Shown here: in pieces, positions 53,016-56,760 of the stretch
How positions within the stretch are numbered: the stretch's first letter is position 1
Layout: each line of letters begins with the position of its first letter
Assembly: GCA_902600205.1 (NCBI GenBank)
Contig: CACKIN010000001.1
Location: 62,001 to 126,000 of the forward strand
Direction: 5' to 3'
Source of the DNA: an uncultured Pelagibacteraceae bacterium
GTDB taxonomy: Bacteria > Pseudomonadota > Alphaproteobacteria > Pelagibacterales > Pelagibacteraceae
DNA length: 64,000 nt
Notes under the pieces: generated by a model
The model's database searches: none
Told to the model about the DNA's origin: nothing
Seen by the model: the letters and a program-made list of their open reading frames with translations, nothing else
Program-made: the position numbers and the translations under genes

Positions 53016-54116
53016 ATGAATACTATAATTCTTGTTTTACTTTCACTCTCACTTATTAGTTCAGTATTAATTATATATTTGAATTTTAAATCAAAGAATG
53101 AATCTCATAATGAGAAGGAAAATCAGGAGATTCAAAGGCTAAATCAAGAAATTATAAATTTAAAAGATTCTTTAAATACAACAATAAATAGCACTATGAA
53201 CTCAATGGCTACTTCTTTTAATAATCTTTCATCAGGTGTAACAAAAGATATGACGAATGCTTTAACTCAAGTAGATCAAAAAGTAGCTTCCTTTAATGCC
53301 CAAGTTGAAAATTTGAATGAAAGTCAGAAGGGCATTAATCAAATATTGGCAGGTGTTAAAAAGTATGGAACCTTAGCCGAGTTTAGTTTGGGCTCCCTGA
53401 TTAAGGATTTGATGCCAGCATCTCAATATTCATCAAATGTAAAAATGAAAGAAGATACGGGTGAAAATGTTGAATTTGCAATTAAACTTCAAGATGGGAT
53501 TTTGGTTCCAGTTGATAGCCACTTTCCAGTTGAAAGATTTAAGGCCATCCAAGATGCTCATCAGGAAGATGACAAAAAAGCTATGGCTGATGCAAGAACT
53601 AAACTTGCTAGAGCATTTAAAGAAAAGGCTAAAAGCGTGAACGAAAAATATATCGTCCCACCAAAAACGACAGATTTTGCGATTGTTTATGCACCAACTG
53701 AAAGTTTATTTTTAGAATTAGCTAATTATCAAGATCCATCTACAAAAGAATTATTAACTCAAGAATTAATGAAGAAACATAAAGTAACTATCATGGGCCC
53801 TAACAATTTATCTGGTTACTTACAATCACTTCATATGGGATTTCAGAGCTTACGAATTAAAAAGAATGCATCTGAAATATATGATCATTTGAAAAAAATA
53901 AGCACCAGATTTAATATGCATTTTAACAATGTTTTAGTTTTAAGAAAAAAATTAGAAGAAGCAATGTCGGTAGTTGATAGTTTTGGTAAAGATGCAAGAG
54001 CAATAAACAGAAGTGTTGACTCAATAAAAAATCCTAATGATGACGATGATCCAGATCCAAGTTCTCCGTCTTCAATTTCAGGTTTTGGTCAGGATGAAAA
54101 ACGAAAAGTTTCTTAA
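53016..54116 (+). CDS. rmuC: DNA recombination protein RmuC
   Basis: N-terminal TM, coiled coil, GTLAEFSLGSLIKDLMPASQYSSNV ... DSHFPVERF RmuC core. Confidence 0.93.
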   Translation: MNTIILVLLSLSLISSVLIIYLNFKSKNESHNEKENQEIQRLNQEIINLKDSLNTTINSTMNSMATSFNNLSSGVTKDMTNALTQVDQKVASFNAQVENLNESQKGINQILAGVKKYGTLAEFSLGSLIKDLMPASQYSSNVKMKEDTGENVEFAIKLQDGILVPVDSHFPVERFKAIQDAHQEDDKKAMADARTKLARAFKEKAKSVNEKYIVPPKTTDFAIVYAPTESLFLELANYQDPSTKELLTQELMKKHKVTIMGPNNLSGYLQSLHMGFQSLRIKKNASEIYDHLKKISTRFNMHFNNVLVLRKKLEEAMSVVDSFGKDARAINRSVDSIKNPNDDDDPDPSSPSSISGFGQDEKRKVS

Positions 54117-54127
54117 AGCCTAAATGA

Positions 54128-54814
54128 ATGAAATGGAGTAATAAATTTATTTATCCAAAATCTACAAGGTCAATTGAGGATGGATATAGAAAATACTCCT
54201 TAGGTAAGGAAAAACTACCAAGTGTTACTACAATCTTAAGTGCTACTAAATCCGAAGAGGAAAAAGCAGCCATCAAAAATTGGCAAGAAAGGGTAGGTTT
54301 TAAGGAAGCAAATAGAATTAAAACTGAAGCATCTTCAAGAGGAACGTCAATGCATTCTTATATTGAAGATTACTTAAGAGGTAGGATTAATGAAAGCTTT
54401 TTTGAAAGTAATGAACAATACAAAAATATGGCCAAAGAAATAATTGAAAAAGGTGTAAATAGTAAATTAGATGAAATTTATGGAATGGAAGAAACTATCT
54501 ATTATCCAGAACAATATGCTGGAACTGCAGATTTAATTGGAATTTATCAGGGAAAAGATGTCATAATAGATTTTAAGCAGAGCAATAAACCTAAAAAAAC
54601 AGATTATATTCAAGATTATTTCTTGCAACTTGGAGCATATACTTTGGCTCATGATGTCGTACATGGAACAAAAATGAAAGCAGGGATAATCTTACTCTGT
54701 ACAAAAGATATTCTATTTCAAGAATTTAAAATTGAAGGTGCAGAATTAGAGATGTATCAAAATTTATTCATGGGAAGAGTTAAAAAATTTTACGAGATGA
54801 ATAATATAGCTTGA
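54128..54814 (+). CDS. PD-(D/E)XK exonuclease, MGME1-like
   Basis: LPSVTTIL...W, RGTSMHSYIEDYL (H76), YAGTADLIGIYQGKDVIIDFKQSNKPK (D135, D148, K150), QLGAY (Q167/Y171). Confidence 0.8.
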   Translation: MKWSNKFIYPKSTRSIEDGYRKYSLGKEKLPSVTTILSATKSEEEKAAIKNWQERVGFKEANRIKTEASSRGTSMHSYIEDYLRGRINESFFESNEQYKNMAKEIIEKGVNSKLDEIYGMEETIYYPEQYAGTADLIGIYQGKDVIIDFKQSNKPKKTDYIQDYFLQLGAYTLAHDVVHGTKMKAGIILLCTKDILFQEFKIEGAELEMYQNLFMGRVKKFYEMNNIA

Positions 54815-54938: not shown

Positions 54939-56372
54939 ATGAATTTAGCAATTTGGGATATAGAATCATCGAGTGCTAGCACTGACTTTGGTAGCATTAT
55001 AGAAATTGGGGGAATACTATTTGACGAGAACTTTAAAGAAAAAGATAGATTTAATCTTCGATGCAGACTTCATGAAACTGAGATTTTTCAAGCTGCAGCT
55101 TTAATAGTTAACAAGACATCAATTAAACAACTTACTCAAACAAATCTAAGTCATTATCAAATGCTTGGGCAGGTTGAAAAAATTTTTAAGAAATGGAGCC
55201 CTGCTATTTTCTTAGGATGGAGTTCACTAAATTTTGATGAGGAGATGATAAGAAAAGAATTTTTCAAAAGTATTAGGTATCCTTATTTGACAAATTCCAC
55301 ACCAAATACAAGACATGATGGAATAAATATTGCAAGAGCTGCATATGCGGTAGATCCAACTGTTTTAGAAACTGAAATTAATGAAAAAAATAACCCAGTT
55401 TTTAAATTAGCATCACTGGCTCAGATGCAAGGAATAGATGCAAGTGATGCACACTCTGCACTTGCTGATGCAGAACTTACTGCAAAAGTGTTGAAAATTG
55501 TAAAAGAAAAACAGGAACACACTTGGGAATCTTTTTTAAGTACTTCAAATAAATCTAATACTGAAACCATTATGAAAAAAGGAGAAGTTGTAACTTTAAA
55601 TGAGTATTATTATGGAAAGTCCAGGCTTCATTTAGTCGTACCGTTACATCCAAAACATTGTATGCATCCTATTTATCAAGGATGGTATTACACAATAGAT
55701 CTTAGAACAGAAATTCAACCATTAATTAATAAATCTATAAATGAATTAAAAACCGAGATGAAAAAAACACCCAAGTTTTTAAGAACGGTTAGATCAAACA
55801 AAGCACCAATAATTATTGATGCAAAATATGGCTTGAATGTTGAACCATATAATAAATTAGATAAAAACGTTATTAAAAAAAGAGCTGAATTTGTTCAAAA
55901 CAATGAACAGTTTTCACAAAATATTTTGACTGCCCTTCGTGAGGTTGCAGAAGAAAAAGAGCAATCAAAATCCCAAGAGGATATATATGCAGAGGAAAGT
56001 ATTTATACAAAATTTACATCGAACAAGGATACCGCTCTGTTTCCAAGTTGGCATGAGGCTCCATGGAAAGAAAAATTAAATTTATTAGATAAGTTTGACG
56101 ATGATAGATTGGTTAGTTTTGGTAAAAAAATCATCTTTCAAGAAGCTCCGGAGATACTTCCAGTCTCTATGTATAAGTCCATAAGGAGAGATATAGCAAA
56201 AAGAATACTGAGTGAAAAAAAAGAAAAATGGTGGACTATTCCAACTTTATATAATGAAATTGATACTTTAAGAGAAAAATATACTAATGAAAACGACAAT
56301 GAAAAATTAACCCTTTTGGATGAGTTTAATAATTATGCAATGTCAATTCAAAAAAAGTATGAAAATGTTTAA
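54939..56372 (+). CDS. sbcB: Exodeoxyribonuclease I (DnaQ-fold)
   Basis: IWDIESSS (DxE), LGWSSLNFDEEMIRKEFF, HDGINIARAAYAVDP, DAHSALADAELTAKVL. Confidence 0.85.
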   Translation: MNLAIWDIESSSASTDFGSIIEIGGILFDENFKEKDRFNLRCRLHETEIFQAAALIVNKTSIKQLTQTNLSHYQMLGQVEKIFKKWSPAIFLGWSSLNFDEEMIRKEFFKSIRYPYLTNSTPNTRHDGINIARAAYAVDPTVLETEINEKNNPVFKLASLAQMQGIDASDAHSALADAELTAKVLKIVKEKQEHTWESFLSTSNKSNTETIMKKGEVVTLNEYYYGKSRLHLVVPLHPKHCMHPIYQGWYYTIDLRTEIQPLINKSINELKTEMKKTPKFLRTVRSNKAPIIIDAKYGLNVEPYNKLDKNVIKKRAEFVQNNEQFSQNILTALREVAEEKEQSKSQEDIYAEESIYTKFTSNKDTALFPSWHEAPWKEKLNLLDKFDDDRLVSFGKKIIFQEAPEILPVSMYKSIRRDIAKRILSEKKEKWWTIPTLYNEIDTLREKYTNENDNEKLTLLDEFNNYAMSIQKKYENV

Positions 56373-56439: not shown

Positions 56440-56760
56440 ATGGCTACAATAAATGTAACTGATGAAAACTTTGACGAAAAAGTTTTAAAAAGTGATAAAC
56501 CAGTTCTTGTAGATTTTTGGGCAGAATGGTGTGGACCTTGTAAAATGGTGGGACCCATTTTAGAGGAAATATCAAATGAAATGGCTGGGGAAGTTGTAGT
56601 TGCAAAACACGATATAGATTCTCAACCTAACGTTCCAACTCGATATTCGATAAGAGGAATTCCTACTATGCTATTATTTTCAGGTGGAGAGTTAAAAGCT
56701 ACTAAAGTTGGCGCTACACCTAAAAGCGATATAGTTTCTTTTATTAAGGAAAATATCTAA
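56440..56760 (+). CDS. trxA: Thioredoxin
   Basis: VDFWAEWCGPCKMVGPILEEI. Confidence 0.97.
   Translation: MATINVTDENFDEKVLKSDKPVLVDFWAEWCGPCKMVGPILEEISNEMAGEVVVAKHDIDSQPNVPTRYSIRGIPTMLLFSGGELKATKVGATPKSDIVSFIKENI

Follow-up and report, generated by a model that had tools for sequence, protein, structure and literature searches.

Why does a SAR11 chromosome carry a gene that resembles the one for a human mitochondrial exonuclease, where did it come from and what might it do there? The gene lies at 54128..54814 on the forward strand of the window, by which we mean the whole 64,000-nt stretch of DNA analysed here, from an uncultured Pelagibacteraceae bacterium. It is labelled MGL below (MGME1-like PD-(D/E)XK exonuclease gene), an assignment based on sequence, fold, conservation and dN/dS. 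The open reading frame (ORF) is intact and uninterrupted, starts with ATG and encodes 228 aa. A preliminary description of the locus had pointed to the motifs LPSVTTIL, GTSMH76, GTAD135, D148-F-K150 and QLGAY, all of which are found in the 228-aa ORF, and had ascribed to both proteins a 13-residue spacing between the two aspartates, which our alignment confirms as common to MGL and human MGME1 (YIGLLD...VIDWK). That the gene sits on the chromosome of an alphaproteobacterium was also right, the lineage being SAR11/Pelagibacteraceae.

Among Pfam families, MGL gave a marginal match to PDDEXK_1 alone (23.1 bits, cut-off 22). Searched with phmmer against PDB sequences, it matched human MGME1 at E = 1.9e-9 and nothing else better than 0.1, and a profile of 12 MGL relatives matched MGME1 at 7.5e-16 over residues 25–226. 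The AlphaFold2 model of MGL (pLDDT 92.8) had MGME1 as its best Foldseek match (E = 3.9e-12, TM 0.74/0.85); the top nine matches were all MGME1 structures (E 3.9e-12 to 5.7e-11, TM to query 0.69–0.74), far ahead of weaker matches to DinG (4e-5), RecE (7e-5), Cas4-family proteins (about 1e-4) and AddAB (2e-3). Given these phmmer, profile and Foldseek values, the likeness is not due to chance.

The active site agrees with the fold. Human MGME1 uses H180, E223, D238, D251 and K253 as metal-site or catalytic residues (PMC6237815), and each has a counterpart in MGL, with residue pairs counted by hand along the profile alignment: H76 (codon 54353..54355, as all of these on the forward strand) aligns with H180 of the metal site, E121 (54488..54490) with E223 of motif I, D135 (54530..54532) with the metal ligand D238, D148 (54569..54571) with the metal ligand D251, and K150 (54575..54577) with the catalytic lysine K253. 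All five are unchanged across the 12 relatives. Membership of MGL in the MGME1-like/phrog_298 exonuclease family is well supported, and in calling the protein MGME1-like the preliminary description was correct on sequence, fold and active site alike.

As grounds for refutation it had named a closer likeness to phage exonucleases, or to Cas4, RecB or AddB, than to MGME1; this holds for phage exonucleases but not for Cas4, RecB or AddB. A Cas4 identity is rejected on the score against the Cas4 profile TIGR00372 (13 bits, cut-off 65) and on the weak structural match. An iron-sulfur Cas4 is expected to carry a cysteine cluster, whereas the catalytic domain of MGL has none, C191 being the sole invariant cysteine among the 12 relatives; the neighbouring ORFs, as identified from their sequences, include no cas genes. 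An AddAB/RecB nuclease subunit was likewise rejected, as MGL is a stand-alone protein of 228 aa, neither joined to a helicase nor encoded beside one, its neighbours being rmuC and exoI, and its structural match to these enzymes is weak.

The closest relatives of MGL are found in phages. The profile of PHROG 298, a phage exonuclease family, matched MGL at E = 1.8e-51 over residues 9–224, and tblastn with MGL matched 987 phage records, the best being the pelagiphage-like 023Pt_psg01 (45.1% identity) and pelagiphage HTVC023P (44.6%). Marine viral contigs were up to 51–52% identical, which puts the marine-phage and pelagiphage exonucleases of PHROG 298 at about 45–52% identity to MGL. A maximum-likelihood tree built from 55 proteins put the Pelagibacteraceae copies in a single clade (98/97 support) among phage sequences. 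Profile, phage records, viral contigs and tree thus all agree with the phage derivation that the preliminary description had offered as an alternative. In a Salmonella phage the homologue sits beside UvsY and UvsW, in cyanophages beside gp33/gp59, and in HTVC023P and DSL-LC04 beside SF2 helicases, surroundings that fit work in recombination or replication. A second, far more divergent family member occurs in a pelagiphage (HTVC026P gp13, L332), and plasmids of Thermus, Scytonema and Synechocystis carry distant relatives at about 28–34% identity (for example, L329 and L330).

These results bear on a further suggestion, that the gene might speak to the origin of MGME1. On one reading along these lines, MGL is the ancestral gene of Alphaproteobacteria from which the mitochondrial enzyme derives, kept in SAR11 and lost elsewhere. 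The PDB searches are what this reading has in its favour, as MGME1 was the only significant match by sequence and the best by fold. However, phage members match human MGME1 as well or better (HTVC023P at 2.2e-10, and cyanophage P-RSM1 at 5.8e-12 over a match spanning the N-terminal two thirds, against 1.9e-9 for MGL itself), with the RaK2 phage member weaker than MGL at 2.8e-3. Human MGME1 also stood apart from the Pelagibacter clade, outside the whole phage and Pelagibacter set; its branch measures 3.8 changes per site and, for one eukaryotic sequence, is too long for precise placing. With that single sequence in the tree, MGL and eukaryotic MGME1 did not form a group from which phage proteins were excluded, and the phylogeny lent no weight to a special link between Pelagibacter and MGME1.

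The distribution of MGL points the same way. Copies 97–99% identical were found in Pelagibacteraceae records, and 27 of 37 genus genomes, mostly incomplete and including the window's own, carry the gene, where about 28.6 would be expected from completeness if it were universal. A family sample had it in 23/25 genomes of the window's genus, so that the absence from related genomes raised by the preliminary description as grounds for doubt was not seen within the genus. MGL was not found in two nearly complete genus genomes (G865 and G885), and it is therefore not strictly essential; in G036 (L081), it is split, and reading through its two overlapping pieces meets in-frame stops, which points to either a damaged copy or a fault in assembly. 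Outside the genus, the family sample yielded one carrier, in genus g456. No copy was found in 24 sister-family genomes or in either of the two complete genomes of sister genus g5, sampled Alphaproteobacteria had no close relatives outside the Pelagibacteraceae, and of 399 genomes sampled across the phylum, the window's own was the sole match at E<=1e-14. Class-wide matches to phrog_298 fell mostly in ORFs of about 1000–1400 aa, which we set aside as probably AddB-type; of two shorter exceptions, one (L024) had no ORF matching MGL. Another alphaproteobacterium (G154, L026) encodes a 312-aa stand-alone PD-(D/E)XK-like protein with the motifs GTSVS, KYAGTIDL and FDYKTG.

A gene essentially absent from the other Alphaproteobacteria and Pseudomonadota sampled and from sister lineages of the same order, and confined to Pelagibacter and one genome of a neighbouring genus, is a poor candidate for an ancestor of MGME1. 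Its distribution, the tree and the equally good phage scores lead us to reject an alphaproteobacterial origin of MGME1 by this route and to consider it highly improbable that MGL is the ancestral gene. The tree is unrooted in practice, so we infer the direction of transfer, from phage to host, from distribution.

If MGL came from a phage, it could still belong to a prophage, or to the remains of a recent phage insertion, rather than to the host. Its clear phage family would suit that reading, but its surroundings do not. Immediately upstream, 11 nt separate the MGL start from the stop codon of rmuC (53016..54116, forward strand; 366 aa; Pfam RmuC 2.6e-46). Downstream on the same strand come an exoI/sbcB-like gene (54939..56372; 477 aa; Pfam Exonuc_X-T_C 9.2e-17 and RNase_T) and a thioredoxin gene, trx (56440..56760; named from sequence, WCGPC motif), the conserved right-hand edge of the locus. 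Most relatives have the order his genes, rmuC, MGL, exoI, trx, then folC and accD on the opposite strand, and exoI follows MGL in nearly every one; even the divergent MGL copies of G879 and G864 occupy the same neighbourhood. In sister genus g5, rmuC, exoI and trx are present, with MGL missing from between them. No phage structural genes were found near MGL among the ORFs of the window. MGL is under strong purifying selection, with dN/dS well below 1: seven comparisons gave dN of 0.006–0.147 against dS of 0.12–2.1, dS being saturated for the more distant pairs. With flanks of rmuC, exoI, trx, folC, accD and his genes in many genomes, near-universal presence in the genus and this degree of constraint, a recent prophage was rejected, and we regard the prophage reading as scarcely credible.

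The rmuC neighbour is less constant. MGL precedes a different rmuC type in G012 and G031, two loci carry an oppositely oriented rmuC-like gene, and two further loci carry no rmuC; rmuC thus changes while MGL stays with exoI. This exchange (window type, G012/g5-like type, opposite-strand or none, with exoI in place) was seen at loci L070, L071, L080, L091, L093 and L095. Other neighbours (trx, folC, his; L065–L096) are mosaic among close relatives, thioredoxin being 98% identical in one and about 37% in others, as if alleles had been exchanged by recombination.

Swapping of rmuC types next to MGL, as variable loci often do, together with a phage origin and related genes in pelagiphages, could indicate that MGL is a domesticated phage nuclease serving in defence, acting on incoming phage or plasmid DNA or on replication intermediates, and not in housekeeping repair. 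Against this, MGL keeps a stable single locus beside the core exonuclease gene exoI across the genus, in no mobile island, and its amino-acid sequence is strongly conserved, with no rapid change. A defence role is, on balance, unlikely.

A housekeeping role gains interest from what MGL carriers lack. ExoVII and RecJ provide two-way or 5'-to-3' degradation of single-stranded DNA (ssDNA). ExoVII (XseA) was absent from 37/37 genus genomes (log10 P of about -27 for incompleteness as the cause) and from all genomes of the window's genus in the family sample; 23/24 sister-family genomes have it, as do four of the family's other genera. Over both samples combined, ExoVII occurred in 0/49 MGL carriers and MGL in 0/44 ExoVII-bearing genomes. 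Six other genera of the family had neither, bar MGL in the one g456 carrier. ExoVII loss therefore did not require MGL, a strict one-for-one replacement is weakened, and as few as one or two events may underlie the mutual exclusivity.

RecJ was absent from 20/20 genomes of the window's subclade (log10 P of about -16), a group with 100/99 support in the MGL tree; g5 and most of the sister family have RecJ, and in the genus its presence is patchy. Among the genus genomes tested, 6/29 MGL carriers and 3/10 non-carriers had RecJ, and a dependence of RecJ loss on MGL is unsupported. The RecJ copies retained in the genus score about 381–446 bits at full length versus about 546–569 in sister groups. 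A PDDEXK_1 search of 15 well-assembled genomes of the order found only MGL in G012 and one 231-aa ORF in G045, so AddAB-type nuclease domains appear to be missing across the order.

MGL could nevertheless be a ssDNA exonuclease accessory to ExoI and RmuC, the losses of ExoVII and RecJ being unconnected with it and a matter of mere genome streamlining. Some genera lack ExoVII and MGL alike, and RecJ loss does not track MGL, as this would predict; the absence of ExoVII from every carrier, and of MGL from every ExoVII-bearing relative, argues the other way. We hold the accessory role to be a real, if minority, possibility.

We consider it most probable (roughly 0.6) that MGL is a captured phage MGME1-type ssDNA exonuclease, now a core gene, that most likely supplies ssDNA trimming of the ExoVII/RecJ kind. 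An ancestor of Candidatus Pelagibacter would have captured the enzyme at the rmuC–exoI locus, where it would then have become a core chromosomal gene. Human MGME1 attacks ssDNA at either end, with a rate about 3.1 times higher at the 5' end (PMC11551736), and the combination of monomeric state, both-end action and 5' bias is known for human MGME1 only (PMC6237815, PMC11551736). Having the same fold and active site, MGL probably also degrades ssDNA from both ends and faster from the 5' end. The activity, polarity and cellular role that we infer are those of a two-metal PD-(D/E)XK enzyme that, by homology, would thread ssDNA and degrade it from its ends with a 5' preference, most likely giving the 5'-to-3' or two-way trimming for which other bacteria use ExoVII and RecJ, beside the 3'-to-5' activity of ExoI. 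Candidate tasks are to resect broken ends so that RecA can load and to remove flaps. In cells with no ExoVII, no AddAB and, in the window's subclade, no RecJ, MGL is a natural candidate for such 5'-end resection or flap trimming.

SAR11 bacteria, which rank with the ocean's most abundant cells, show very frequent recombination, with RecBCD, RecF, MutS and MutL reported missing (PMC12374537). MGL beside exoI offers a concrete candidate nuclease for DNA-end preparation in Pelagibacter. What is new is that, in a lineage with no ExoVII, a phage MGME1-type exonuclease has become a conserved gene on nearly all Pelagibacter chromosomes; in the open-access literature searched, we found no paper linking MGME1 with Pelagibacter or with a phage-family origin. 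A bolder proposal, which we put forward tentatively and think rather doubtful, is that in Candidatus Pelagibacter the phage enzyme functionally replaced ExoVII, and in the window's subclade RecJ too, as the main 5'-acting ssDNA exonuclease, paralleling a phage-type MGME1 in mitochondria. If true, two reduced genomes would have come independently to rely on one phage enzyme family. The Pelagibacter gene does not reveal the origin of mitochondrial MGME1, yet MGME1 belongs to an exonuclease family widespread in tailed phages, and this membership suggests a phage connection for it.

Set beside known systems, MGL shares the PD-(D/E)XK superfamily with Cas4, RecE, lambda exonuclease and the AddAB/RecB nuclease domains, which are far weaker structural matches (E 1e-5 to 1e-2, TM to query <=0.5). 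With ExoVII (XseA) and RecJ, both missing from the window's subclade, it has in common the proposed biochemical slot, although their folds are unrelated to its own. Human MGME1 resembles MGL in fold, in the five active-site residues, in the spacing of the aspartates and in a similar core length; it differs in being only about 20% identical, on a very long branch, and in having a mitochondrial targeting region that MGL lacks, and MGL is no nearer to it than the phage members are. The phrog_298 exonucleases of pelagiphages HTVC023P and HTVC027P, phage DSL-LC04, cyanophages, jumbo phages and Kuttervirus are homologous over the full length, have the same size and motifs, and reach 39–46% identity in the closest named phages; unlike them, MGL is a conserved chromosomal gene that holds a fixed host locus and forms a clade of its own.
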